In this document: in pieces, positions 16,772 through 39,799 of the stretch
Position numbering within the stretch: the stretch's first letter is position 1
How the letters are laid out: each line of letters begins with the position of its first letter
Assembly: GCA_017609465.1 (NCBI GenBank)
Contig: JAFCDX010000006.1
Location: 1-46,688, forward strand
DNA length: 46,688 nucleotides
Direction: 5' to 3'
Source: Candidatus Woesearchaeota archaeon
Lineage (GTDB): Archaea > Nanobdellota > Nanobdellia > SCGC-AAA011-G17 > JAFCDX01
Program-made: the position numbers and the translations under genes
Notes under the pieces: model-generated
The model's database searches: none
Told to the model about the DNA's origin: nothing
Seen by the model: only the letters and a program-made list of their open reading frames with translations

Positions 16772-16966
16772 ATGATAATACCAATAAGATGCATGAGCTG
16801 TGGAAAGCCAGTTGGACATTTATGGCAGAAGTTCAATGAATTAAAGAAATCAAAGTCTGTAAAAGAAGCTATGGATGAAGCTGGTTTAGAAAGATACTGC
16901 TGTAGGTCATTATTCTTAAGTCATGTCGATTTGATAGATATAGTTTCAAAATTCAAAAGATTTTAA
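16772..16966 (+). CDS. rpoN: RNA polymerase subunit N (Rpb10 homologue)
   Basis: MIIPIRCMSCGKPVGHLWQKF...LERYCCRSLFLSHVDLID. Confidence 0.94.
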   Translation: MIIPIRCMSCGKPVGHLWQKFNELKKSKSVKEAMDEAGLERYCCRSLFLSHVDLIDIVSKFKRF

Positions 16967-16990
16967 AAGTTTTTTTTACAAAAATATAAT

Positions 16991-18028
16991 ATGGAAATTA
17001 ATATGAATTATGGAAGTAAAGGTTTATCCAATAAAGAAATAAATAAATGGAATTATGATTCTTTTTTAGAGCTTGAAGAAAGAAAAACAAATTTGTTGAA
17101 GTATATCCAAAGTTTTCCTGATATATATAAAAAAATAAATATGAATGGAGAAGGTTTGTTAATCCCAAAGAAAATAGAAGAAAATGATATAATAAATTAT
17201 AATAATTTAGAAACTTTGGTTAAGAAATTTTCTATTATGATCTCAAGAAAAAGAAAGCATAAAAATTTAAGAGAAAAGATAATTGAAAAGAGAAATGAGA
17301 TAGAGGAATACAATCTGGGCATAGTTCTAAAACGTGCAAGCCATTATAATGTATTTTTAAACAGGTCTTTTTTTGATATATTCCAGGATGGATGTCTTGG
17401 AAGTCAAAGAGCTGTAGAAAAATTCAATTATAAAAAAGAGTATAATTTCTCAACTTTCGCGATATATTGGATAGACCAATCAATAATTAGGGGATATAAT
17501 AATCATGCTTATACCATACGTATTCCTATCCATACCATAACAAAAATTAGGAAGATGGAAAAATTAGCAAGAAAATTAGATTTGGATATAAATAATACTT
17601 ATGATCTTTATATAATTTCAAAAGAGATGAATATGAATATTAAAGAGATTCTAAAACTTAGAGAATATAACATAAAAACAAGCTCTCTTAACAAAGAGAT
17701 TACAAAGGAAGATAGTAAAATAGAATTGGGGGACATTATTGAAGATAAAAACATAAAAAACCCATTTGAAATATACGAAAGCAAAAAAACTAAGGTGGAC
17801 GTACTGAATTTATTAAAATGTTTATCTCCAAGAGAAGAGATAATAATAAAAATGAGATTTGGAATTAAATGTCTTTATTCTGAAGACCCTCCTAGAGAAT
17901 ATACTCTTGAAGAAATTGGAGATTATCTTAATGTTACAAGAGAACGTGTGAGACGAATACAATATAAAGCACTTAAAAAGCTTAGATTGAATCAAGAAAT
18001 TGAGGGAATAACATTACATCAACAGTAA
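16991..18028 (+). CDS. bacterial-type sigma-70 family RNA polymerase sigma factor
   Basis: Region 2: DIFQDGCLGSQRAVEKFNYKKEYNFSTFAIYWIDQSIIRGYNNHAYTIRIPIHTITKI; region 4: LSPREEIIIKMRFGI...YTLEEIGDYLNVTRERVRRIQYKALKKLR. Confidence 0.93.
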   Translation: MEINMNYGSKGLSNKEINKWNYDSFLELEERKTNLLKYIQSFPDIYKKINMNGEGLLIPKKIEENDIINYNNLETLVKKFSIMISRKRKHKNLREKIIEKRNEIEEYNLGIVLKRASHYNVFLNRSFFDIFQDGCLGSQRAVEKFNYKKEYNFSTFAIYWIDQSIIRGYNNHAYTIRIPIHTITKIRKMEKLARKLDLDINNTYDLYIISKEMNMNIKEILKLREYNIKTSSLNKEITKEDSKIELGDIIEDKNIKNPFEIYESKKTKVDVLNLLKCLSPREEIIIKMRFGIKCLYSEDPPREYTLEEIGDYLNVTRERVRRIQYKALKKLRLNQEIEGITLHQQ

Positions 18029-18059: not shown

Positions 18060-19133
18060 ATGACAAAAGAGGCATTTAATCCATGGAGTTCTAAATCCAT
18101 AAAGAATTATGAGGCTGCATTTGATGAATTTGGATTAAAGAAAATAGATAATAAATTAAAACTAGACCATCATTTATTCAGGAGAAACATAATAATAGCT
18201 CACAGGGACTTTGACAAGGTATTTAATAGAATAAAAAACAAAAAGCCTTTCATACAGATGACCGGAATAGCTTCATCAGGAAAACTTCATTTTGGTCACA
18301 AATCAATAATAGACATGTTCACATTTTTCTCAAAATTCCAAAATTCAAGAAATTATTTTGCAATCTCTGACATAGACGCTTATTGCTCAAGAGAGAAATT
18401 CAAATCCTTTGAAGAAACAAAAGAGTATGCAATAGAAAATCTTGCTAATGTGTTGGCATTGGGCGTTAAAAAGAAATATGTTTATGTTCAGTCAAAAAAA
18501 GAAAGTAAGTATTACAGCTTTATCTTTGAATTGTCAAAGAAAATAACAAGAAAGTCCTTTGAAGCAACATACGGGCATATTGACTTGGGAAAAATACAAG
18601 CCAGTTTAATACAATACGGCGACATATTGCATCCACAATTAAAGGATTATGAAGGAAAAATGCCTTCGTTAACAGGTATTGCGCTTGATCAAGATCCTCA
18701 TGCAAAAATAACAAGGGACATTGCAAGAAAATTCAAGTTAGAATTGCCAAGTTTTATTTATTTACTTCATCAATCAGGATTAAAAGATTCTAAAATGAGT
18801 GCTTCAAAACCAGAAACAGCAATTTTCCTTGATGATTCCAATATAGAAATAAAGAAAAAGATACAACATGCATTTACTGGTGGAAGAGATACTGTAGAAG
18901 AGCAAAAAAGGCTTGGAGGAGATCCTGAAATATGCAAGATTCATGAGTTTTTATTATTTCATCATCTAAAAGACAAGTTCGTTAAGGAAATATATGACAG
19001 GTGCCGTTCCGGGAATTTATTATGCGGAGAATGTAAGCAGTTATGTACTGATTTTATAATAGATTTTCTTGAAAAACACAGGGAAAAAGTAAAGAAAAAC
19101 AGAAAAATAGCAGAGAAAATTATAAATAATTAA
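18060..19133 (+). CDS. trpS: tryptophanyl-tRNA synthetase (archaeal type)
   Basis: TGIASSGKLHFGHK (HIGH-like), KMSAS (KMSKS-like), LTGIALDQDPHAKITRDIA. Confidence 0.93.
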   Translation: MTKEAFNPWSSKSIKNYEAAFDEFGLKKIDNKLKLDHHLFRRNIIIAHRDFDKVFNRIKNKKPFIQMTGIASSGKLHFGHKSIIDMFTFFSKFQNSRNYFAISDIDAYCSREKFKSFEETKEYAIENLANVLALGVKKKYVYVQSKKESKYYSFIFELSKKITRKSFEATYGHIDLGKIQASLIQYGDILHPQLKDYEGKMPSLTGIALDQDPHAKITRDIARKFKLELPSFIYLLHQSGLKDSKMSASKPETAIFLDDSNIEIKKKIQHAFTGGRDTVEEQKRLGGDPEICKIHEFLLFHHLKDKFVKEIYDRCRSGNLLCGECKQLCTDFIIDFLEKHREKVKKNRKIAEKIINN

Positions 19134-24923: not shown

Positions 24924-26411
24924 ATGACATTAAAAAGCTTTTATGATAAATATAAAACAAGGGTTAAAACCGCAGCCGCTATAACTGCATTAGGTTTAGG
25001 ATTAGGATTCTCTGGAGCAAAATATTGTCCTACAGAAGTATATGCGACAGAAAAACCAAAAGAAAAAATAGAAAAAGCAAGACCTGGTTTAGTGAAGGAT
25101 TTCAACCCAAACATGTATGGAGGGGTATTGCATGACATACAAACAGACAATGATTATAGAAAAGTAAATTCTAATGTTCAATACCTTACAGATAAGAATA
25201 TTAAATTAATAGACAAAGACAAAAATGGAAAAGTTGATCATGTTTATCTTGGATTAAGAAAGGATTCTAATGCAACTGTATTGTTAAATACTCATGAGAA
25301 TCCAAACAGATTTTTTGAAGATGGAGAATATCATCTTGATGAAGGACCTTATAATGAAGCTATAAGATTATCTGCAAAAGAAGATGGAATATATAGTGTT
25401 CCTATACCAGAAAACACAAACCTTGGTAAAATATACTTGACAAATTTTGAGAAACAACCTTCAAAAGAAGATGGAAAATGGAATTTTGAATCAGTATATT
25501 TTGGAAAAGGACTCATTTTTTATCCAAATGGAAAACCGCAAATAGTGAAAGATGCTCAAAGAGATGGCAGAAAGGATATTACTAAATGTCCCTCTGCTAT
25601 CCCTCCCTTACCTCAAATAGAAAAAGAAGATGGAAAAGAAGATTCAAAAGAAAAATATCAAGTTCCAGATAAAAAAACACCTAAGAAAGAATTTGGTTGG
25701 GATGGTCTTGAAGAAAAAGTTGAAGAACAGGCTAAAAAAGAACATTATGGTGTAAAGTTGGATGACTTGGTTGATGTTTATGTTAAGTATCCAACAAGCA
25801 TTTATGGTTTAGACCATGAAAAGAATGATGTTGATTTTGAAAACAATGATTCACTTACTATAATACCATATACTAAAGTTAGATTTGTACCAAAAGAAGA
25901 TGATGTAAATATATATGTTGTAAAACATTCAAATGAAGGAGAAATTATTGCAAAAGGAAAAGAAAAGCCAAGAAAAAGCAAGTTTGACGGAAGAAAAATT
26001 GCAGTTGGTGGACCTTTCAATAAATTGGGTGAAGAAACCTTGATTGATAAATTAGAAAGTGATGATATAGTAAGATTTGGATATGATGGAATTAATGTAT
26101 TTGATTATTTCCCAAAATTGACAACTAAAAAAACAAAGAATGGATTCAATGTTCCTGAATTAACATGGGATTATGATGTTGACAAATCAGGAATTGTTTC
26201 AGATGTATATGATATTATAGTTGAGCATGAAGGGAAAAAATATAAGATAACATTTGATATAAGCAATGATCCAGAAGCTATATTCACAACAGGTGCAGTG
26301 GTAGGTAGTGCAGGAGCAAGTGCTTACTTTAACAGCCTTCCGGATAATGGACATGGATCAAAAGTAAATATTCCTGGAAAAAACGGAGGAGACCAAATAG
26401 CTCCAAACTAA
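24924..26411 (+). CDS. secreted hypothetical protein
   Basis: N-terminal export-like hydrophobic segment; no recognised domain. Confidence 0.6.
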   Translation: MTLKSFYDKYKTRVKTAAAITALGLGLGFSGAKYCPTEVYATEKPKEKIEKARPGLVKDFNPNMYGGVLHDIQTDNDYRKVNSNVQYLTDKNIKLIDKDKNGKVDHVYLGLRKDSNATVLLNTHENPNRFFEDGEYHLDEGPYNEAIRLSAKEDGIYSVPIPENTNLGKIYLTNFEKQPSKEDGKWNFESVYFGKGLIFYPNGKPQIVKDAQRDGRKDITKCPSAIPPLPQIEKEDGKEDSKEKYQVPDKKTPKKEFGWDGLEEKVEEQAKKEHYGVKLDDLVDVYVKYPTSIYGLDHEKNDVDFENNDSLTIIPYTKVRFVPKEDDVNIYVVKHSNEGEIIAKGKEKPRKSKFDGRKIAVGGPFNKLGEETLIDKLESDDIVRFGYDGINVFDYFPKLTTKKTKNGFNVPELTWDYDVDKSGIVSDVYDIIVEHEGKKYKITFDISNDPEAIFTTGAVVGSAGASAYFNSLPDNGHGSKVNIPGKNGGDQIAPN

Positions 26412-26412
26412 A

Positions 26413-28140
26413 ATGAAATTTTTAAAACACTTTTTAATGTTGATTGTAGTTTTGGCTAGTGTGCTTGCTGTAACTTACACAGACACTGTAATATTCACAA
26501 ACAATAACAATGAAGAACTGGATGTTGGTTTATTCAATTGTGGTTCAGACACATCATGTGAAAACCCTGATTTGGTTGATGATTATTTCAAGACTATTCA
26601 GGCTGATGAATACACCTTTGAAAGAGAAACATCCGAATACTATGCGGAATTCTTCTTTAAGGAAGGATATGCTCCAAAGGCATATTTAGTTCCTGTTAAT
26701 TATCAGGGAACAGATTATGTTACTTTTAACAAGTTTGAAAACTGTGATGCAGATATATTAAATGCGGACATTAATGAAATAAGTGTTACAGAAGGGGAAA
26801 ACGTTGTTATAAATGTTGAAGTTGAAAGCGCATTTACAAGAGATGAAACAAACCCTATATTGTATGAGCCAAGCGAATATGAAGACTGGTATGATGCAGA
26901 CACAGAAGTAAGATTAATTGTATTGGATTCAGAAAACAATACTGTATATGAAGATGTTGAATTAAGAAACATTTACAGGGATGAAACCGAAAACGTTGAA
27001 TTTATATTAAACACTTCTGAATTGACAGGAGATTATAATATTGTTGTAGAAACAAATGTAATTGATGAAATATGTGAAACACAGGAAACACAGGAATCTA
27101 ATTTTGACTTGACAGTAAATCCATTGCCTCAGGATTTGGAAGCGCCTATAGCAAATTTCACTTATGAATTTGTTGATTATTCAAATGTATCATTTGATGC
27201 TTCAGAGTCATTTGATATTGATGGTGATATAGTTTCATATGAATGGGACTTTGGCGATGGGGAAACAGGCGTTGGAGAAACAATTAATCATGTATTTGGA
27301 GAAGGAACTTACAATGTTACTTTAACAGTTACAGACAATGATACTTTAACAGACAGTATGACAAGAGAAATTACAATAACAATTGAAGATGAAAATATTG
27401 TACCTTCTGTTGAAATAGTTGCAAACCCGGAAGAAGGAGAAGCACCATTGACAGTAAACTTTTCAGCAATAGTTGAAGGGGATTCACCCATAGAATATGA
27501 ATGGGATTTTGATGAAAATGGGATTGTTGATAGCAATGAAGAAGAACCATCATACGAGTTTGAAGAAAATGGAACTTACTTAGTTACATTAAAGATAACA
27601 GATGCTGATGGTGAAGAAGCAGAAGATACAATAGAAATATTGGTTGGAGAAAAACAGGAAGCTAATGAAGATAATGAGCATGAATTATTGGTTGACCAGA
27701 TATTGGTTCCAGAAGACATATACATTGGAGATGAATTTAGTGTTGATATTGAATTGAGAAACAATGGAGATTATACTGAAAAGGATCTTTTAGCAAGAGT
27801 ATATGTTGAAGAATTAGGATTATATGAAATAATAACAGGATTTGATTTGTCACCAAAAAGTTCCAAATGGAAGCAGGTAACCTTTGAGTTACCTTATGGT
27901 ATAGAAGAAGGAGATTATACTTTAAAGGTATTTTTCTTTAATGATGATGCATCTGATATTGCATACAAGACATTTGATGTTAACTTAAGAGAAGAAATTA
28001 TAGTGGAATCTGTTGAAAACACTACCGAAAAGGAACAAATAGATTGGTTAGGTATATTGGAAATTATATTCTTAGGACTATTGATACTTGCTTTTTTAAT
28101 CGGAATAGCTGTATTGATTTACAATTTATTTAACAAGTAA
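26413..28140 (+). CDS. secreted, C-terminally anchored PKD-domain protein
   Basis: SFDIDGDIVSYEWDFGDGETGVGETINHVFGEGTYNVTLTVTDND and a second PKD repeat; CARDB-like region; C-terminal TM. Confidence 0.85.
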   Translation: MKFLKHFLMLIVVLASVLAVTYTDTVIFTNNNNEELDVGLFNCGSDTSCENPDLVDDYFKTIQADEYTFERETSEYYAEFFFKEGYAPKAYLVPVNYQGTDYVTFNKFENCDADILNADINEISVTEGENVVINVEVESAFTRDETNPILYEPSEYEDWYDADTEVRLIVLDSENNTVYEDVELRNIYRDETENVEFILNTSELTGDYNIVVETNVIDEICETQETQESNFDLTVNPLPQDLEAPIANFTYEFVDYSNVSFDASESFDIDGDIVSYEWDFGDGETGVGETINHVFGEGTYNVTLTVTDNDTLTDSMTREITITIEDENIVPSVEIVANPEEGEAPLTVNFSAIVEGDSPIEYEWDFDENGIVDSNEEEPSYEFEENGTYLVTLKITDADGEEAEDTIEILVGEKQEANEDNEHELLVDQILVPEDIYIGDEFSVDIELRNNGDYTEKDLLARVYVEELGLYEIITGFDLSPKSSKWKQVTFELPYGIEEGDYTLKVFFFNDDASDIAYKTFDVNLREEIIVESVENTTEKEQIDWLGILEIIFLGLLILAFLIGIAVLIYNLFNK

Positions 28141-28151
28141 TAATTTTACTA

Positions 28152-28168
28152 CCGTAAGGTTTAAATAT
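28152..28168 (+). promoter_or_regulatory. archaeal promoter CCGTAAGGTTTAAATAT
   Basis: BRE/TATA motif; transcript would have a 5' leader before the ATG at 28222. Confidence 0.55.
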
Positions 28169-28221
28169 TAGTTTATAACTTAAATATAATAACAAAGAGG
28201 TAGACTAGGGGGTTTTAAAAG

Positions 28222-29526
28222 ATGCAAAGAATACAAAAAACGCTAAGCATATTTTTAGCATTTGTAGTAGGATTAGTATTAGTTGCTAACAGTGCTTATG
28301 CATTGACTTTTGAGGAAATACAAGTTAATGACGTTGAGTATGAAGCTGGAAACTCCATAATCCATGTAGATAGAGGAGACACTGTTGACATCAGAGTAGA
28401 AATGAAAGGTGGAGCAGTTGACGAGGAAAGAGTTAGAGTGAAATCATGGATTGGTGGTTACAAATACAACGAAATTGAAGACGCAACAGAAAGATTTTCT
28501 GTATTAGCAGATACTTTATATGTCAAGAATTTGGAATTAGAAATTCCTCATGACATGGAAGCAACAGATGACTATACATTACACGTTGAAGCATACGGAC
28601 CACAAGGAGAATCCATAAAGCATGAACAGTTCACTTTGAAAGTGACACCTACAGAAGATCTTGTAGTAATACAGGATGTTATTGTAAACCCGGGTTTAAA
28701 TGTTGAAGCAGGCAAGCCATTGTTTGTAACTGTAAGAGCAGAAAACCAAGGGGAAAATAAGCAGGAAGATGTAAGGGTTAAGGTAAGCATTCCTAAATTA
28801 GGAATCTCAGCAAGAACTTACATTGACGAATTGGTGTCAGAAGAATTTTGTGATCAGTTTGACTGTGATGACGATGAAGAAACATCTGAATCTTCTGATG
28901 AATTAATGTTAAAGATTCCAGAAGATGCAAAAGAAGGCACATATGAATTAAATGTAGAAGTTGAATATGACAGATTCCATAAATCAACTAGCGAATCAAT
29001 GTTAGTCTTTGTGGAAGGCAAAGAAGTTGTAGAAGATGAAGACGAAGGAGAAGTAAAGAGAGTAATTAACGTGGATACAAAGACACAGGAAATTACTCAA
29101 GGTGAAAAAGGTGTTGTTTACAGAATAACATTGGCAAACCTTGGCGACTCAGCAGAAACATACAACTTAGAAGTAAGTGATGTCGGAACATGGGGAACTG
29201 CAAGAGTAGACCCAAGTTTAGTAACTGTACAAAAAGATTCAACTGGAGAAGCATTCGTATATGTTGCAGCAAACGAGAACGCAGTTGAAGGATTGCATGT
29301 ATTTACAGTAGAAGTGAATAAAGACGGCCAAACTGTTAAGGAAATTACTTTGACAGCAGATGTCAAAGAAGGAAAATCTGGACTTGAATTGACACAAGCA
29401 CTCTGGATAGTTTTTGGTGTTTTGGTGTTAATAGTAATAGTATTGGGAATTGTACTATTAATAAAAAAGTCTGGAGAAGAAGAAACAGAAGAGCCAAGCA
29501 TGACTGAAGGCCAAACTTACTACTAA
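28222..29526 (+). CDS. secreted, membrane-anchored protein with CARDB/NEW3-like repeats
   Basis: Signal sequence; IQDVIVNPGLNVEAGKPLFVTVRAENQGENKQEDVRVKVSIP; C-terminal TM. Confidence 0.75.
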   Translation: MQRIQKTLSIFLAFVVGLVLVANSAYALTFEEIQVNDVEYEAGNSIIHVDRGDTVDIRVEMKGGAVDEERVRVKSWIGGYKYNEIEDATERFSVLADTLYVKNLELEIPHDMEATDDYTLHVEAYGPQGESIKHEQFTLKVTPTEDLVVIQDVIVNPGLNVEAGKPLFVTVRAENQGENKQEDVRVKVSIPKLGISARTYIDELVSEEFCDQFDCDDDEETSESSDELMLKIPEDAKEGTYELNVEVEYDRFHKSTSESMLVFVEGKEVVEDEDEGEVKRVINVDTKTQEITQGEKGVVYRITLANLGDSAETYNLEVSDVGTWGTARVDPSLVTVQKDSTGEAFVYVAANENAVEGLHVFTVEVNKDGQTVKEITLTADVKEGKSGLELTQALWIVFGVLVLIVIVLGIVLLIKKSGEEETEEPSMTEGQTYY

Positions 29527-29527
29527 A

Positions 29528-29551
29528 TTTTTTTTCTTTTTTTCTTTTTTT
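29528..29551 (+). terminator. poly-T archaeal-type terminator
   Basis: T-rich tract TTTTTTTTCTTTTTTTCTTTTTTT right after the stop codon. Confidence 0.6.
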
Positions 29552-29622
29552 AATTAAATTATTATTAATAGAAGATATTATTCCAAAATTATATAAAAGA
29601 TATTGTATTAAGAAAAACTAAA

Positions 29623-30181
29623 ATGTTAAAGAGACTATTCACATCAAAAACAAGAACAAGGATATTAGAATATCTATTTTTTCAAAAGAAAGAGACCTAT
29701 CTTAGAGAAATTGTTAGAGAACTTAGTCTTTCACCCAATGCTGTAAAAAGAGAGATAGATAATCTAATTGCTTTTGGATTAGTTAAAAAGAATAAAATAA
29801 AATTAGTTTAAATGAATCTTGTCAAATAATTAATGAATTGAGAAATATTTTTATAAAAACGATTATTTGGTTTATCCGATTAAGAAAGCCTTAAATAAGA
29901 AAGATATAAAATTTGCTTTAATTTTTGGAAGTTTTGCAAAAGGAAATTATGGTTCAGAGAGTGATATTGATTTACTTGTTATCGGAGATGTTAAACAGAA
30001 AGAAATCTTCAAATTGTTGAAACCTGTTGAAAAATTAATAAAAAGAGAAATCAGCCCTGTTGTTTGGACAGTTGAGGAATTAAAGAAAAATAAAAGCAAG
30101 GGTTTTGTTAAGGATATTGCAAAAAAAAGAAAGATAATGATTAAAGGAGGGGGAGATGAATTTCAGAGAATTATTAAATAA
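29623..30181 (+). pseudogene. winged-helix + MNT-type nucleotidyltransferase, frameshifted twice
   Basis: GSFAKGNYGSESDIDLLVIG motif; frames rejoin by +1 nt in TTT (29807-29809) and in A5 (29855-29859). Confidence 0.7.
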
Positions 30182-30559
30182 TAAAAAAAATAGAGAAAGT
30201 AGAGAAAGAAAAATTTGATGTTGACCTTGCTGAAAAGGATATTAGATCTGCTGAGCATAGTTTTAATTCAGAGGATTATGACTGGGCAATATCAATTGCT
30301 TATAATGCAGTTTTAAGATCTGGAAGAAATTTCATGTTTTATCTAGGTTATAGGCCTATTGGAAGAGAGCATCATAAAAATGTTTTTGAATTCTTAAGAA
30401 AAGCTGGGTTTGATAAAGAATTAACCGATTATTTTGATAATATAAGGAAAGAAAGAAATAAATTTGTTTATGGGGTTGTTGAGGGAGCTTCAAAGGAAAA
30501 TGCTGAAGAAGTAATAGAAAGCAAAAGAATTTGTTCAAAAAATTGGAACAGAAAAATGA
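30156..30559 (+). pseudogene. HEPN domain protein partner, frameshifted
   Basis: MNFRELLNNKKIEKVEKEKFDVDLAEKDIRSAEHSFNSEDYDWAISIAYNAVLRSGRNFMFYLGYRPIGREHHKNVFEFL...RKERNKFVYG; frames rejoin by -1 nt in A8 (30183-30190) and -1 nt near 30518-30520. Confidence 0.65.
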
Positions 30560-30722
30560 AAGGATTAACAAAAATACAAGGGTTTCATTGGAAGAAATTT
30601 TAGAAGTTCTTAAAGAAAATGATATTGAATTCAAGCAAAGATCATCAACAGTTAAAGATAGTATCCCTCATTTCAAAAGAAACAGAATAATAATCAAAGA
30701 CAAAAACATTAAAATATGATAT

Positions 30723-30893
30723 ATGAAAATCTTGGAAGACCTGCTGAATCTTCTAGAGATGAGGATATATGTTTCTAAATGGAAGATAAATTCTGTTAAT
30801 GGTATAAGAGAAATATCCAAAAATTATGATGAATATGTGATTCATATTAAGGATGGCCATATATTGGAAGAGATTTCTTTATGTTATGTGTAA
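30723..30893 (+). CDS. 56-aa hypothetical protein
   Basis: MKILEDLLNLLEMRIYVSKWKINSVNGIREISKNYDEYVIHIKDGHILEEISLCYV; not in the ORF track. Confidence 0.35.
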   Translation: MKILEDLLNLLEMRIYVSKWKINSVNGIREISKNYDEYVIHIKDGHILEEISLCYV

Positions 30894-30895
30894 AA

Positions 30896-30911
30896 AAAAA
30901 GATTTATAAAT
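30896..30911 (+). promoter_or_regulatory. archaeal promoter AAAAAGATTTATAAAT
   Basis: TATA motif ~25-30 nt upstream of the ATG at 30933. Confidence 0.55.
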
Positions 30912-30932
30912 AGTTAAGTATGTTAAAATAAT

Positions 30933-33707
30933 ATGAAAAAGAGGTTATTTTTACTATTATTTTATTTAACTTTAATAGTATTAAGTGTATTTGCTGCTGA
31001 TAAAATTATCATACCTGATGGTGGGGGGGATTATCAGAATTTAACAGCTTGCTTAAATGCTTTAAATAATACAAGAGGAGATGCATGTATTTTTAATTAC
31101 ACCTCTGGAACAAACTCCACTATTTTTACTTTGCCTAAAACTTATTATAACTTAAGTAAAAGTACTTCACATGTAGATACTTCTGGTTCTATTATATTAA
31201 ATAATGTAAATAATATAACAATTGACTGTAATTTCTCTATAATAACAGGTATAGAATATTCCAATGGAAGTGGATTTTTCATTCATAATTCATCCAATAT
31301 AACTATAAAAAATTGCAACATAAAGAATTATATAATTACAGGTATTTATGTAAATGATACTAATAATATCACTATTGATAATTTTAATTTATATAATATA
31401 TCCTATAGTTCAATATATTTTGATAAAACAAATAATAGTTTCATTAGAAATATAAATGTATCTACTAATAGAAAAAGTTGGTTTGAATTATACTCGGGAC
31501 TTGGTTATGCAAATTTTTATGGTATATATTTTAAAAAATCTAATTCAAATATAGTAAATAATTTTACTTTATTGGGTCAGGGTTTTGTAGGAACAGGAAA
31601 TAATGCAGGTTCTACAGGTATCCGCCTAGAAAGTTCTACTAATAATAATTTTTCAAATGGGACCATAGATAGATTTAATTGGAATTCTGCACTTTTTTTA
31701 TATTATGATGATACTGTCAATAATACATTTATATATATTAATTTTACGCATAATAATAATATTCTTGATTTTAGTAGTGGTGGAAAACCTATGTACAATC
31801 TTATAAATAAATCAAATTTTATATGGAATAATAATATAAAAATTTGGGAATGGGGGTTTCCTCATGGATTAAATTGTTCTGAATGTATTATGGATAATAT
31901 AAGAGATGATCAAATATTGATAGGAATAAATAATACACCAAATAAAACTACTGGAGAATTTATTAACTTTAATGTCACATTCAGGGAAGTTTCATTTTTA
32001 AATAATTTAGGAGATCCTAATAATTATAATATATCTATTTATCCAGAGCCAACTAATCTACAATATCATAAATCTGGGCCTTATTTGTTTGGTAATTTTA
32101 CTGCTGAAAGACCAGGTATATATACTATCAAAATCAATATGACAGATAATAAAAGTAATGTTATATTTAGAAATAATCATATATATGTTAATACAACACC
32201 AAATACAATTACATACTATTTTGCTGCAAATAGGACCATGTTACATGGACAGCCAAATGTTATAGGACGTGGCTCTACCGATGCAATTGGGATGTTATTA
32301 ACAATACCTGAAGTAGATGGTGTTGGTTTCTGTAGCAATTGGTGGGCAGCATCCCCTGATGAAATACCCCCATCTCCATTTGGAGTATTAGTTGATTATA
32401 ATTTTAGTATGTATCATAATCAAAGTGGATCAAGTTCTACAACTATGGAATTAGGAAGATATGCTACATATACTGGAGGGGGCAATCCAGATCATGATGC
32501 AGAGGCAAGACCACTTTTTTATGGAAGAGAAAAACCAATGTGGTATAATACTACAAAGATAAGTAATTATTTAATTCCAATAGAATCACAACAAGACTGG
32601 TTCTGGTTACAATTTTTGGAAGAGGATAATTCTGCAGGTACATTAGACCCTCATGTTTTTACAGGTCCAACAAATACAAGTAGTATTAATATAACTTATT
32701 TATACACATATCCAAAAATATCAAATATAACAAATTTAAATGTTAGATTATTATCAGCAACTTTGATTAAAGATAATTCAAAAAATGCGACTATACAATT
32801 AGAAACAAATAAATATAGTTTATTAGATGGTGATACATCTACAAATATAACTATAGAAATGCCTGTTACTTCAACAACTTACAAAGCATATTATGATGGA
32901 ACTTTATGTTTAAGTGGAGGTATATGTAATTATAGTGCAATAGATAATGCAATTACATTACAAATTAATGTAGGCTCCATCCATGAAATTGGGATAGAAG
33001 AAGATATAATTTCTGTTGATACCTTTCCTAATATTGATTTTAGTATGTATCTTAATGATATAAAAGAAGTATCATGTTCAGCATCAAATACTATTGGAAT
33101 AAACAAAGTAGAATTGACAATTGGTAGTGATGTTATATGTAGAGGAACAGATTCATGTTCATCAGATTATAAAGCAAGTGATTTGGGTGTAAAAAAGATG
33201 TTTTGTACAGCAACAGATGATATAGGAAACGCTAAACAAACATTACCAATTGATATAACAGTAAGATCAACAAGAAGTTCAGATGATGGAGGTTCAGATC
33301 CGGGACCAACTACAACAATAACTGAAGATACACAAGACATAACAGTAGACAAAGGAAGAATAATAATGGTAAAAGAAGGTTATTCTATAGAAATAAATAA
33401 TATATTGGGTGATTCAATAGATTATACAATATATGACAGTGGTAAAGAAGTATTAAAAGATAATATTAAATTAAAGGATTCTAAAGATATAGATCTTGAT
33501 AATGATGGAAATAATGATATTAGATTAAGATTAAATTCCATTAAACTTAATAAAGCAGATATTACTATAGAAAGATTGGGTTCTTCTGAAGATATTATTG
33601 AAGAAGTTACAGAAGAAGAAAAATCTTTATTATGGGTGTGGATATTAGTATTTATTCTTATAATTGGTGTTGTTGGTTATTTTGTTTATGATAAGTATAA
33701 GAAATAG
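30933..33707 (+). CDS. surface protein with NosD-like right-handed beta-helix and C-terminal anchor
   Basis: Signal peptide; NNITIDCN..SNITIKNCNIKNY..NNITIDNFN repeats; Ig-like Cys domain; DLDNDGNNDIRLRLN; C-terminal TM. Confidence 0.8.
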   Translation: MKKRLFLLLFYLTLIVLSVFAADKIIIPDGGGDYQNLTACLNALNNTRGDACIFNYTSGTNSTIFTLPKTYYNLSKSTSHVDTSGSIILNNVNNITIDCNFSIITGIEYSNGSGFFIHNSSNITIKNCNIKNYIITGIYVNDTNNITIDNFNLYNISYSSIYFDKTNNSFIRNINVSTNRKSWFELYSGLGYANFYGIYFKKSNSNIVNNFTLLGQGFVGTGNNAGSTGIRLESSTNNNFSNGTIDRFNWNSALFLYYDDTVNNTFIYINFTHNNNILDFSSGGKPMYNLINKSNFIWNNNIKIWEWGFPHGLNCSECIMDNIRDDQILIGINNTPNKTTGEFINFNVTFREVSFLNNLGDPNNYNISIYPEPTNLQYHKSGPYLFGNFTAERPGIYTIKINMTDNKSNVIFRNNHIYVNTTPNTITYYFAANRTMLHGQPNVIGRGSTDAIGMLLTIPEVDGVGFCSNWWAASPDEIPPSPFGVLVDYNFSMYHNQSGSSSTTMELGRYATYTGGGNPDHDAEARPLFYGREKPMWYNTTKISNYLIPIESQQDWFWLQFLEEDNSAGTLDPHVFTGPTNTSSINITYLYTYPKISNITNLNVRLLSATLIKDNSKNATIQLETNKYSLLDGDTSTNITIEMPVTSTTYKAYYDGTLCLSGGICNYSAIDNAITLQINVGSIHEIGIEEDIISVDTFPNIDFSMYLNDIKEVSCSASNTIGINKVELTIGSDVICRGTDSCSSDYKASDLGVKKMFCTATDDIGNAKQTLPIDITVRSTRSSDDGGSDPGPTTTITEDTQDITVDKGRIIMVKEGYSIEINNILGDSIDYTIYDSGKEVLKDNIKLKDSKDIDLDNDGNNDIRLRLNSIKLNKADITIERLGSSEDIIEEVTEEEKSLLWVWILVFILIIGVVGYFVYDKYKK

Positions 33708-33733
33708 TTTCTATTTATAATAGAAAGATTTTT
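33708..33733 (+). terminator. hairpin TTTCTATT-TAT-AATAGAAA followed by T5
   Basis: 8-bp perfect arms directly after the stop codon. Confidence 0.35.
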
Positions 33734-33889
33734 GGGGTAGATATTGAAATAAAATCTACAAATAAACAACTATAACAATTATTTTATATAAATTAAGTTA
33801 AAATAACTATGTTTGCAATATCTATGTTTTTATTAAAGAATATTTATATATTAATGTTTTCTCTTTAAAATGATAAAGAAGGTGAATTT

Positions 33890-36400
33890 ATGCATAGTAA
33901 CAAATATATAATAACTTTAATTGCATTAATACTAATCAGTTCTGCTTCTTCATTAGAATTAAACGCTGGAGAAAATGCTGTTTCAGTATGCCCTAGAAGC
34001 ACTCAATTATTCATAGATAATATAGTAAATGATGAATCTGTTCAAAAGGAATATACAGTTAATGCTGTTGGAGAGGCTTCTGCTTTTGCAACACCAGCAA
34101 CAAATGGTTTTATCCTTGAGCCTGGAGAGTCAAAAGCAATATATACTTATGTAACCCCTTTTTCTGACACTCTTCCTAAGCAATACAGTCTTGATGTTAA
34201 AATAAGCACAAAGGATTCTTTTGTAATCGCATCACACATAGTAAATGTAAAAGATTGTCATATATTAAATACAGCAATAGGACAGATACAAAAAGAAACT
34301 TGTCCTGGAGAAACAGCCCAATTTGAATTTAATATACAAAACAATGGGGAATATCAGGAAATTTATTCATTGTATGCAGAAGGAGAAATATCTGAAAAAA
34401 TATCATTAAGCGAAGAGGTAATAAAATTAAATCCAGGAGAGTCAAAAACAATAATAGCTTATGCTAAAGCAGATCCTGATGATGAAGGGATTTATGAATT
34501 TTCAGTAACTGCAGATTCGCAGGTAAGTAATGCAATATCAACAACAAAAGCAACTCTAAAAGTAAATCCTTGCTATGAATATGATGTTTTTGCTGAAGAG
34601 GATTTTGTTGAAATTTGCGAACATAGTAGAGAAGTAATACCCATAAGAATTGATAATAAAGGCTCTGTTGTTAATACTTTTAATTTGGGCGTTGAAGGTC
34701 CTTCATGGGCCTCTGTATCAAACAACAAAGTAACTGTAAATCCAGGTTCAAGTGCAGTTAGTGAATTAATATTAACTCCTAATTATGAGGTGGAAGATGG
34801 ATTTAACATAGAAGTTGAAGTAACTCCTGAAAAAGGAGAATTAAAAGCAAGACAAACTTTTAAGGCAATTGTAAGAAAATGCCATTCTGTTCTTGTTGAC
34901 ATACAGGCAGATGAAGACAAGATATGCAATTCAATTTCAAACAATTATAATGTACTTGTAAAAAACACAGGGGAAGTTTCAAAGCAATTTGCATTAGAAG
35001 GCATAGGTCCCTCATGGGTTACAACAGATGCACCCGCACAATTTTCATTAGATGCAGGAGAGGAAAAATCATTCATAATAAATGTAAATCCTAATTTTAA
35101 TACAAACCCTAGTGATTATGATATAACTTTAAGAGCAAAAGCATTGGATGATTCAGGAGTATCATCTGAAGACACTTTCACAATAACAACAGTGTCTAAA
35201 GAAGATTGCTACAAGCCAAAAATAATTTTAGAAAAAGACAGTATAGATGTTTATTATGATGGAAGCGCTAAATTGCCTGTTATTGTTGAAAATACAGGAA
35301 CATATGATGCTATTTATGAATTAGGCATATCCGACACTGCTTCATCATTCGTTGAATTAAATCCTTCTGTAGTTGAAATATCTCCTGGAGATTCAGAAGT
35401 TGTTTATGTTTACATTGCACCAAATGCTCAGATTGATGATGGAAGTTATCTTGCAACAATTTCAGCAAAGTTGCCTGATTCAACAATACTTGCTTCAGAA
35501 GATCTTGATATTGAAATAATAAATGTAAAACCAAAGGATACTATTCCAAGAGAAGACAAGGTTTCTTTCTGGCAAAAAATTACAGGATTTTTTGTAAGTT
35601 TATTTTCTTTTGAACCTACAAATGAAACAGAATCCGTCGAAGAGATTGAAATCATTAACGAAACCCCTGATATTGGTTTAGTTGAAGAAGAACCATTAGA
35701 AGATATAACAACGGTTGTTGAGCCTGTGGAAGAAGATATTACTGAAGAAGTTGTTGAAAAGGAACCAATAATTGAGGAAGAACCTGTAATAGAAGAAACC
35801 ATTAATGAAACAGAAGAAATTGTAGAAGAAGTCACAGAGGATGGTTCTGATGTTGAAGAAGAGATTACTGAAGAAGTTGTTGAAGAGAGTGAACCAGTAC
35901 AAAGCGGAGATGTCAAATGCCAGATAAATGGGGTTGATTCTCTTGATTTAGTAGATTCAATAAGCATAACATTAACAGAAGATGAAGATTATGAAATAAT
36001 AGTAAAAGAGCAAAAGCATAATATAAAAGTCAGTGCAATAGATGAAAATAGTGTATTCTTGATAATAACATCTGAACCACAGCAATTGCTAATAACAGAA
36101 GGAGAAACAAAAAATATTGATCTTGATAATGATGGAGGCTTTGATATGAAGATAACATTGAATGAAGCTAATAGGGACAATGCGAATTTTGTGTTTGAAA
36201 AAGTTGAAGAAGAAAATCCTGTATTCAAAACATTAGATTATTTAAAACAATATGAAAATTACATAATAGCAGGAATAATAGCAGTAATAATATTAATCAT
36301 AATAATAAAGACAAAATTTTACCAGAAGGCAATTGATTTCTTTGAAGAAGAGATAGAAGAAGAAGATATTAAAGACGAAGAAAAGAAAGACAAGGAATAA
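33890..36400 (+). CDS. secreted membrane-anchored protein with tandem Cys-containing NEW3/CARDB-like repeats
   Basis: Repeats such as CPGETAQFEFNIQNNGEYQEIYSLYAEG and CEHSREVIPIRIDNKGSVVNTFNLGVEGPSW; Glu-rich linker; C-terminal TM. Confidence 0.8.
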   Translation: MHSNKYIITLIALILISSASSLELNAGENAVSVCPRSTQLFIDNIVNDESVQKEYTVNAVGEASAFATPATNGFILEPGESKAIYTYVTPFSDTLPKQYSLDVKISTKDSFVIASHIVNVKDCHILNTAIGQIQKETCPGETAQFEFNIQNNGEYQEIYSLYAEGEISEKISLSEEVIKLNPGESKTIIAYAKADPDDEGIYEFSVTADSQVSNAISTTKATLKVNPCYEYDVFAEEDFVEICEHSREVIPIRIDNKGSVVNTFNLGVEGPSWASVSNNKVTVNPGSSAVSELILTPNYEVEDGFNIEVEVTPEKGELKARQTFKAIVRKCHSVLVDIQADEDKICNSISNNYNVLVKNTGEVSKQFALEGIGPSWVTTDAPAQFSLDAGEEKSFIINVNPNFNTNPSDYDITLRAKALDDSGVSSEDTFTITTVSKEDCYKPKIILEKDSIDVYYDGSAKLPVIVENTGTYDAIYELGISDTASSFVELNPSVVEISPGDSEVVYVYIAPNAQIDDGSYLATISAKLPDSTILASEDLDIEIINVKPKDTIPREDKVSFWQKITGFFVSLFSFEPTNETESVEEIEIINETPDIGLVEEEPLEDITTVVEPVEEDITEEVVEKEPIIEEEPVIEETINETEEIVEEVTEDGSDVEEEITEEVVEESEPVQSGDVKCQINGVDSLDLVDSISITLTEDEDYEIIVKEQKHNIKVSAIDENSVFLIITSEPQQLLITEGETKNIDLDNDGGFDMKITLNEANRDNANFVFEKVEEENPVFKTLDYLKQYENYIIAGIIAVIILIIIIKTKFYQKAIDFFEEEIEEEDIKDEEKKDKE

Positions 36401-36430
36401 TTTTATAAATAAATAATATCTTATAATAAC

Positions 36431-39400
36431 ATGAAAAAAGAGGCATTAAAAAGTATAACTTTTATATTTGTTTTTTCAGTAGTTTTATTATCAATTTATA
36501 TTTTGATATATCCAGGCAAGGATGATTTATCTCAAATATCTGGTAAATCTGTAAACTCTAAAGACGGTATTATTGATTCTCCTGATTTGATGTTTGGAGT
36601 TCAGCAAGATTATATTAAGCAAACTTACTTTTTGGACTTGAATGGAGATGGTTATACAACAGAATCAGACTGCGACATGATAATATATAGAACCCCAAAT
36701 CCAGATTATAAGTGTGATTTTACCCCAAATTGTAAAACAGGAGATGCAAACCTAGACGGATCAATCTTTGCAACAGATGCTTCTAAGTGTAGAAGTGTAA
36801 CATCTCATCAAAGTCTAAACTTACCACAAACTCTAAACATAAGCGTTGTTTCAAATACATCAAATATAATAACTTTAAGAGTAATGGGAAAACTTTTAGG
36901 TAATGAGAATCCTATGGCAGGAATCATGGTGGAGCCTGAAACAGGAAATAAAAACAATGTATCTTTTAATGTAGATTATAATTATACAAATGATAGTGGA
37001 ATGGTTTCATTTAAATATGTTATTAATCAATTTAATACTCAGCAAGTTCTTAATTTTACAATATATAATGGTTCTGTGATTGGAAAAACTCTTGATGGTA
37101 TGGGAACAACAAAAGAATATAGTATAGGAAATGCTCTGAATACCACATTTAACTTTAGCAAAAAATCTCCTGTTATAATGGATATAAAAAATGTTACACT
37201 TGAGCCAAATATAACAATAATGTATTACTGGGAAAATTTAACCTTTAATTGCTCTGCAACTTTTTATGATACAGAAACAAAATATAATAATATATCATGG
37301 TATTGGTACCAAGAAGACAGTGTTTTTATAAGCAATTTAACAAATGGAATGAATATGAGCAATCACACAAATGTAATAAATGGAACTTATTGGAGCCCTG
37401 TAAATCTAAGTAATGGCACAGGAACTAAAAACTATAAATTTGGGTATAATTATTCCTGCGGTATTGGTATATGGAATGGATCAAACATGTATTTTGCAAA
37501 TTCTTCTAATGTAAGCATTGATGGTGACTTAAAGATTACAAAACTCAAATATCTAGGAAATCCCAGGGCTTTTTCATTAGATATTGAGGATTATGTATTA
37601 GGAGTTAATTCCAATGACACATGGGGCAATTATCATCAATATAATGATGGTTTAAGAGATCTAATGTATATTTATGACAAGACAAATGAAACCAAGTTCT
37701 CAGTAGGATTAATACCAAGACCTTCAACTTCAGAATGGTTAAATAGCTCTAATTTAAGTAGCACAGATTATAATTTCAGATATGTTACTGCAGATTTAAA
37801 TTATGATAGATATATGTATGTTTATCTTGATGGTGATTCGCACAATACTACTGCAGGAATAGAATATGTAGCAAGTACAAGCAAGCCTAATAACTTAACT
37901 CATACCTATAATATAACAATTGCTTCTTTTAATATATTCTCAAGCATTATGGGAAGAAATGCAACTGCATGGAAATTCCCTGACTTTAATAATGGACCTT
38001 TTGGTGATAAAGTAATAAAGTCAAATGAGATATTTCCATTCAAAATTTTACTTAAGTCTCATCCAGAACCAGAACTGCATACAGTGGAAAAAGATATAAA
38101 TAACACATTAATAGTTCATGAAACTCACAAGGAATCAAGTATTCCCACATCTTTTGGATTGAATTATTTCTTAAACACAAACATATGTCCTAATGGAACA
38201 TATGTTTCATGTATAAACAAAACAGATTATGTAAATGATGTAATAAACTTAATAAATTATGCAGAAGCGCAAGAAAATATATCATATGTTGATTACGGGG
38301 AAATAGGAGAATTAAGCTCTACATATGAAAATACTGTATTGAATATACAAAACAACACTATGTTTGAAATAGTTTCTAATAGCAATTGGACTTATAGAAA
38401 AAGAATGGCTATTAATATAACAGGAATATTTACTGCTTCAAATCAATATTTGAATTTAACAACTCCTTCAGGACTCACAATAGCACAAAATATGACCACT
38501 TATACCGATACTGGTAAAGATAGAGCAGCATTAATAATAATACCAGTAGAGGATGGGAATTATACATTAATTCCAATAGATGTGCAAAGCCCTGATCCTT
38601 ATTTTGAAATAGAAAACTTAACAATATATGCAAATAATACTAAGACTACTTTCAATGGAACTGATGCAAATTCTTCTGCTTATGCAATATTCAAGATAAA
38701 ATGGACAGGGAACTCAAATGTATGGGGAGATTACAATAATACAAATATTGACTTTAATTTAACTCATGGATTTAGATTTAATCATTCCAAAGGAGATGAA
38801 TGGTGGGTTGAGCATGACATGAAAACAGGCAAATTACATATATTGGGTAATTCCAGTTCAGGCACTGAATATATAACAGCACAAATGCCATTTGTATTTT
38901 CAAAAACGGTTAATAAGATAGGTAAAAAAGAATATTATATTAATACCACAGGGATGTTCAAGAATATAAGTTCAAATCATATGAACTTAAGCATCCCCGA
39001 GGATTATCATTCTGATTGGACACTGGAAGTAACTTATGCTAATGGAACCAAAGTATCAAAAAGTTTCTATGAATCATCCTCTATTATGTTTGATGTTCCT
39101 AAAATAGAGGAAAGAAGCTCTTTGAAAATAGAGTATTATGATGGAGTAAATCCTTCTATAACTGAGTTAACACCTTCTTCTGGAAATGTTAATTTGAATG
39201 AGGATGTAATTATATCCTGCTCATGCTCTGATAATTTTAATCTATCTACAATTGAAGTTAAAGTTGATGGTAACATTGTATGCTCTGCAAGCGATAATAA
39301 ACAGGGGCTTTCATGCAGTTCAGATTATAATTTTGGAACTCTTACCTCTAATAACACATTTAATATTCTTGGAGATCACACAATAGAATGCACTGCAACA

Positions 39401-39799
39401 GATACAAACGATAATATAGCCACACAATCAACAACAATAACTGTTAGAGCAACAAGCGGTTCTTCAGGAAGTGGTGGTGCTGGAGATGGAACTAGTGACA
39501 GTGGAGAACCTGTTATTGAAGAAGAATCAGAAGAAATAATACAGCCAGGAGAAAGTGAAGAAGGATCATTAACTGCAAGAGTGTTAGGAGAAGACATAGA
39601 AGCTGTATTGGAAGTTGGATTGGTTGATATAGGGTATTACAGAAAGATACCAAAAATGTCTGTTAAATTAAAAGAAAAAATAGAGGATAAATTGGATGCA
39701 GAAAAATTACAGTTTATTCCTTGGAGATTAATTGTTCTAATATTAATATTAATTACTTTAATAGTAGGGATATATTATTATAAAAAGGAAAAATTTTAG
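36431..39799 (+). CDS. large surface protein (1122 aa), dockerin-like N-terminus, Ig-like Cys domain, C-terminal TM
   Basis: DLNGDGYTTESDCDMI and DANLDGSIFATDASKC; SCSCSDNFNLSTIEVKVDGNIVC...CTATDTNDN; TM near the C-terminus. Confidence 0.75.
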   Translation: MKKEALKSITFIFVFSVVLLSIYILIYPGKDDLSQISGKSVNSKDGIIDSPDLMFGVQQDYIKQTYFLDLNGDGYTTESDCDMIIYRTPNPDYKCDFTPNCKTGDANLDGSIFATDASKCRSVTSHQSLNLPQTLNISVVSNTSNIITLRVMGKLLGNENPMAGIMVEPETGNKNNVSFNVDYNYTNDSGMVSFKYVINQFNTQQVLNFTIYNGSVIGKTLDGMGTTKEYSIGNALNTTFNFSKKSPVIMDIKNVTLEPNITIMYYWENLTFNCSATFYDTETKYNNISWYWYQEDSVFISNLTNGMNMSNHTNVINGTYWSPVNLSNGTGTKNYKFGYNYSCGIGIWNGSNMYFANSSNVSIDGDLKITKLKYLGNPRAFSLDIEDYVLGVNSNDTWGNYHQYNDGLRDLMYIYDKTNETKFSVGLIPRPSTSEWLNSSNLSSTDYNFRYVTADLNYDRYMYVYLDGDSHNTTAGIEYVASTSKPNNLTHTYNITIASFNIFSSIMGRNATAWKFPDFNNGPFGDKVIKSNEIFPFKILLKSHPEPELHTVEKDINNTLIVHETHKESSIPTSFGLNYFLNTNICPNGTYVSCINKTDYVNDVINLINYAEAQENISYVDYGEIGELSSTYENTVLNIQNNTMFEIVSNSNWTYRKRMAINITGIFTASNQYLNLTTPSGLTIAQNMTTYTDTGKDRAALIIIPVEDGNYTLIPIDVQSPDPYFEIENLTIYANNTKTTFNGTDANSSAYAIFKIKWTGNSNVWGDYNNTNIDFNLTHGFRFNHSKGDEWWVEHDMKTGKLHILGNSSSGTEYITAQMPFVFSKTVNKIGKKEYYINTTGMFKNISSNHMNLSIPEDYHSDWTLEVTYANGTKVSKSFYESSSIMFDVPKIEERSSLKIEYYDGVNPSITELTPSSGNVNLNEDVIISCSCSDNFNLSTIEVKVDGNIVCSASDNKQGLSCSSDYNFGTLTSNNTFNILGDHTIECTATDTNDNIATQSTTITVRATSGSSGSGGAGDGTSDSGEPVIEEESEEIIQPGESEEGSLTARVLGEDIEAVLEVGLVDIGYYRKIPKMSVKLKEKIEDKLDAEKLQFIPWRLIVLILILITLIVGIYYYKKEKF

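Follow-up and report, generated by a model that had tools for sequence, protein, structure and literature searches.

Whether transcription is initiated with a sigma factor or with TFB is the textbook divide between bacteria and archaea, and the locus described here raises the question of what a sigma factor may do on the archaeal side of it. The window, a stretch of 46,688 nucleotides (nt) corresponding to positions 1 to 46,688 of contig JAFCDX010000006.1 of a Candidatus Woesearchaeota archaeon (assembly GCA_017609465.1), carries a gene for a bacterial-type sigma-70 factor. We confirm that its product is a genuine sigma-70 protein and that it resides in a genuine archaeal genome. Our preferred reading, held tentatively with a probability of roughly 0.45, is that the protein is a domesticated accessory promoter-recognition factor for a few genes within the archaeal cell and not a replacement for TBP/TFB. 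Sigma genes occur in about one third of the phylum and combine a conserved DNA-reading helix with archaeal promoters, which makes the coexistence of two initiation systems testable; the alternative that the sigma factor was turned into something else in the archaeal cell is equally testable.

The gene and the regions of its product are as follows.

16991–18028, forward strand: sigma-70 family protein of 345 amino acids with regions 2, 3 and 4 (Pfam, NCBIfam, PDB relatives, AlphaFold model)
17366–17497, forward strand: Sigma70_r2 (core binding, −10 recognition, melting), residues 126–169 (Pfam, 1.1e-8)
17615–17770, forward strand: Sigma70_r3, residues 209–260 (Pfam, 1.4e-7)
17810–17986, forward strand: Sigma70_r4 (−35 helix-turn-helix), residues 274–332, with TRERVRRIQ at 17936–17962 (Pfam, 1.7e-15)

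The open reading frame (ORF) begins with ATG and contains no internal stop codon. Each of the three Pfam regions exceeds its gathering score, and they follow one another in the expected order. No Pfam match to region 1.1 or 1.2 was obtained in the 345-residue protein, so that its description as apparently complete, given in a reading of the sequence alone (the sequence-only reading), is true for regions 2–4 only. The general sigma-70 superfamily model of NCBIfam is passed (84.6 versus 42.9 bits); the closest family is RpoD (TIGR02393), yet its cut-off is not reached (184 versus 354 bits). Nearest relatives in the PDB are SigA/RpoD proteins (E = 4e-38, alignment spanning residues 91–333). An AlphaFold2 model based on an alignment of 33 sequences has a mean predicted local distance difference test score of 77.5, with values above 84 across most of domains sigma2 and sigma4, and its top Foldseek matches (lowest E = 3.5e-15, probability 1.00) are without exception bacterial sigma chains of the SigA/RpoD type. 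The global template-modelling score is low (about 0.36), which presumably reflects a different arrangement of the domains.

Alignment with E. coli RpoD shows that Q406, F427, W434 and Q437 are kept as Q132, F153, W160 and Q163, and the −35 residues R584, E585, R586 and R588 as R317, E318, R319 and R321. Among further aromatic positions, Y430 corresponds to F156 and W433 to Y159, the latter being counted as changed; other changes are E407 to D133, R436 to D162, E458 to T184 and Q589 to R322. The residues that the sequence-only reading had quoted as retained (Q132, F153, F156, W160, Q163 and the R-E-R-x-R motif) agree with this alignment. Like the bacterial primary sigma factors RpoD/SigA, the protein thus has regions 2, 3 and 4, the −35 and most −10 residues, and the fold; unlike them, it lacks regions 1.1/1.2, stays below the RpoD cut-off, is about 30% identical to E. 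coli RpoD, and is encoded in a genome with an archaeal RNA polymerase only. Archaeal TFB would be a possible functional competitor; the window protein has no TFIIB match in Pfam, and the genome has a TFB of its own.

Contact positions were assigned to classes (−35, coil, flap, −10, extended −10) according to their roles in E. coli. The window protein retains four of eight coil-contact positions and six of ten −10 positions, and some class-level relatives retain all of them (8/8 and 10/10). At the six positions that contact the −35 element, DPANN sigma factors show conservation above the trend of bacterial and viral sigma factors, with residuals of +0.22 in the window's order and +0.12 elsewhere that are equalled by random position sets in fewer than 1%. 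Coil and flap contacts follow that trend without clear decay, and the core-contact positions in the window's order fall slightly and non-significantly below it. DPANN sigma factors therefore look as if they were selected for DNA reading, with the core-binding face not clearly lost. To judge from the sequences, they seem to keep this face although their own polymerase lacks its bacterial counterpart.

The sigma gene, which is probably expressed by archaeal means, lies among the following elements.

16772–16966, forward strand: rpoN (archaeal RNA polymerase subunit N), start set at an internal ATG (Pfam RNA_pol_N, 2.6e-22)
16955–16969, forward strand: B recognition element (BRE)/TATA-like element AAAAGATTTTAAAAG, −36 to −22 of the sigma start codon, overlapping the rpoN stop codon (promoter model of the own genome)
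16970–16977, forward strand: T8 run 3′ of rpoN, a possible archaeal terminator as judged from its sequence
18060–19133, forward strand: tryptophanyl-tRNA synthetase (TrpRS; trpS) of archaeal type, with its own TATA-like element in register (profile matches, promoter model)

Promoters were surveyed in a 247-kb sample of the own genome, and elements were scored with a position-specific model derived from the promoters of this genome; only ORFs of at least 90 amino acids were included, and hence the nominal gap of 250 for the sigma gene skips rpoN, the true gap being 24 nt. TATA-like hexamers peak 29 nt 5′ of start codons (58 versus about 10 elsewhere), and a purine-rich stretch precedes this peak: the bulk promoters of this genome are leaderless archaeal promoters with TATA at −29. 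The element AAAAGATTTTAAAAG scores 9.3 bits at exactly this canonical register, the best of those scanned (P = 5e-5 against shuffles of the same composition), a score equalled by only 5% of other promoters. Comparable elements precede several relatives' sigma genes, the whole set being slightly above other genes (P = 0.05). With its archaeal BRE/TATA in register the gene is thus suited to TBP/TFB-dependent transcription, and it is probably transcribed from this promoter as a leaderless mRNA. Its codon usage is host-like (47th percentile of sampled genes), and its G+C content of 26% lies at the low end (11th percentile).

The source genome (801 kb in 36 contigs, 89% complete) contains sigma region 2 once, and a single copy each of TBP, TFB (at G000:C26), Rpo1N and Rpo2. 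Replacement of TFB by the sigma factor was rejected, as both TFB and TBP are present. A second, bacterial-type polymerase was likewise not supported: when 16 sigma-positive genomes were searched with E. coli RpoB and RpoC, archaeal-type subunits alone were recovered, in one place each. Extra matches to the largest subunit were seen on separate contigs of genomes G073 and G081 (G073:C32, G073:C77 and G081:C5; open frames of 1149, 564 and 1174 amino acids), and represent either bacterial contamination or a second polymerase.

Castelle et al. 2021 (PMC8204110) described sigma-70 as "particularly prevalent in Woesearchaeota"; mis-binning was ruled out there, and no anti-sigma factor was detected. 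The presence of the gene is therefore not new, as the sequence-only reading had surmised. The family reported there, fam00359, stems from the same kind of organism, belongs to the same superfamily and co-occurs with TBP/TFB/TFE; that paper reports presence only, and the window copy differs in lacking region 1.2 and in its position behind rpoN. A search of the open-licence literature returned no functional study. New here are the archaeal BRE/TATA element, the archaeal-only polymerase without sigma contacts, the −35 conservation above expectation, and the lack of a promoter excess.

A sigma homologue occurs in 29 of 99 order-level genomes, the own one included. Across the phylum, 134 of 371 genomes pass the cut-off of the sigma-70 superfamily, as against none of four archaeal control genomes. 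The sequence-only reading had treated absence from this locus in all close relatives as a refutation. Neither a sigma gene nor TrpRS was found after rpoN in the S9 loci of 29 same-order relatives, within the stretches fetched (rpoN was identified 3′ of S9 in 20 of them); this does not refute the case, because relatives carry sigma genes elsewhere. Some DPANN genomes have several sigma genes, including adjacent tandem pairs at L079, L090, L100, L102 and L104. Very long sigma-domain proteins of 984–1741 amino acids without any other Pfam domain are encoded at L087:516-5741 (G197), L097:1829-4828 and L098:15951-18905. In one relative's gene (L004/L066, G083:C1) an in-frame TAG lies just 5′ of region 4, reflecting decay, readthrough or a sequencing error.

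In a tree of 78 DPANN, bacterial and viral sequences the DPANN sigma factors form clusters interspersed with bacterial and viral sequences, with at least three changes forced by well-supported branches; the window sequence sits on a long branch whose position is not fixed. Viral contigs scanned with the window protein alone gave no relative, and searched with an alignment they gave many phage sigma factors, none of them close. Phage-encoded sigma factors resemble the window protein in length, share roughly 27–40% identity with it and interleave with the DPANN copies; they presumably serve a bacterial polymerase, whereas the window gene is chromosomal and stands beside ribosomal and RNA polymerase genes. 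The best explanation is that the gene is of bacterial (or bacteriophage) origin and is now chromosomal in a Woesearchaeota-like DPANN archaeon. Within family f16 the neighbourhood of the sigma gene is conserved, so there it has been inherited. PTH2 lies near sigma genes in six loci, about as expected from chance and shared descent by a rough estimate. Relatives' copies are about 40–50% identical even between close genera, and synonymous exceeds non-synonymous change between them (ratio dN/dS roughly 0.3–0.6, with dS near saturation).

The intact regions 2–4 with their DNA-contact residues, the −35 conservation, the core contacts without clear decay, the in-register BRE/TATA element here and in several relatives, the typical codon usage, the single TBP, TFB, Rpo1N and Rpo2, the synteny in f16, the dN/dS values and the lack of a signal peptide or membrane segment together lead us to favour an accessory factor. 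The helix-turn-helix of sigma4 would read −35-like DNA, while sigma2 would read or open −10-like DNA. Sigma2 would also contact the coiled-coil of the clamp in the archaeal RNA polymerase, the only one of the cell, and in this way transcription of a few genes would be initiated or modulated, either independently of TBP/TFB or together with them. We infer expression of the gene, docking on RNA polymerase, an initiation activity and a small regulon. A hybrid system, in which the sigma factor directs an archaeal polymerase devoid of the bacterial sigma contacts at private promoters through a re-invented interface, is conceivable but rather doubtful.

Several observations weigh against an accessory factor. 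In E. coli, residues R275, E295 and A302 of beta-prime are important for sigma-70 binding; as read from the alignment, the clamp coil of the own Rpo1N has I, L and H in their place. The coil is near-identical in 24 sigma-positive genomes (the own one included) and 11 sigma-negative relatives, and the same near-identity was read in further sigma-positive genomes, the coil of G103 not being extracted; wherever the coil of a sigma-positive genome was readable, the sigma-binding residues are missing from it. Co-adaptation of the clamp coil to sigma was hence not seen, sigma-positive and sigma-negative coils being alike. The flap-tip helix, on which sigma4 docks in the bacterial beta subunit (PMC8131849), is missing from the own polymerase, as it is from Rpo2 of 15 further sigma-positive genomes. 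Extended −10 contacts are less conserved than expected across DPANN sigma factors, most order-level relatives have no sigma gene, and evolution is fast, two copies of one genus being 40% identical. The promoter counts are also unfavourable: TTGACA-N16–18-TATAAT occurs at 32 sites in 29 sigma-positive genomes versus 40 in the reversed control (sums made by hand), and of the four sites in the own genome, compared with none for its reversed control, three lie within ORFs.

A genome-wide excess of consensus TTGACA/TATAAT promoters was thus rejected. No wide use of this consensus is evident; the regulon may be small, or the consensus a different one. The earlier proposal that the protein reads bacterial-like promoters has one point in its favour, the conservation of the −35 helix, and is not matched by a genome-wide promoter signal. 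The companion proposal, that it may load on the archaeal clamp instead of TFB or in rivalry with it, concerns a cell that has both TBP and TFB and a polymerase in which the bacterial contact residues of the clamp coil and the flap-tip helix are missing. A slight excess of TTGACA/TATAAT upstream of sigma genes, as expected for autoregulation, is hard to separate from the effect of AT-rich spacers and of TATA boxes and was not used. The sole site of the own genome outside ORFs, L252:1501-1530 (G000:C11), overlaps a good archaeal TATA-like sequence and precedes an ORF that by eye resembles a YhhQ-type transporter.

The deficient polymerase contacts would suit a DNA-binding regulator whose sigma4 binds −35-like sites and there hinders or assists TBP/TFB, no holoenzyme being formed at any time. 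Preservation is best in the −35 helix and extended −10 residues have decayed, which points the same way. We nevertheless regard such a regulator as unlikely, since most copies still have region 2 with its melting aromatics and core-contact residues, and in some class-level relatives the coil and −10 positions are complete. It is less likely still that the gene was repeatedly acquired from bacteria or phages and drifts rapidly with little function of its own. Its patchy presence, the different locations among relatives, the interleaving in the tree with its forced changes, and the internal TAG in one copy would fit; the intact frame, the archaeal promoter element, the −35 conservation above expectation and the synteny kept in one family argue against it.

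The combination of sigma surfaces suited to a bacterial polymerase with an own polymerase devoid of the partner residues would also be expected if the protein were delivered to a bacterial partner cell and acted in trans on its RNA polymerase, all the more as DPANN archaea are generally predicted to be symbionts (PMC8204110). This appears improbable, given that no signal peptide or transmembrane segment was detected in 51 sigma proteins scanned (47 DPANN, 4 bacterial) and that no delivery gene is linked. An assembly chimera or contamination, for which one might cite the low-end G+C content and a comparison confined to one assembly of the species and genus, is very improbable and was rejected. 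Archaeal genes only 24 nt upstream (rpoN) and 31 nt downstream (trpS) would demand two breakpoints; the promoter element is in register, codon usage is typical, sigma genes recur in many independent, near-complete assemblies of few contigs, and mis-binning of such genes has been excluded (PMC8204110).

Profile matches bear out the neighbours named by the sequence-only reading, rpoN upstream and an archaeal TrpRS downstream. The upstream archaeal cluster reads rpoD-L18e-L13-S9-rpoN, with ribosomal labels assigned from sequence and position, and TrpRS is followed by TrmB, PTH2, fibrillarin and Nop. Farther downstream, positions 24924–39799 of the window hold a run of large proteins of 434–1122 amino acids, several with PKD, Ig-like or beta-helix domains, which are probably cell-surface proteins.
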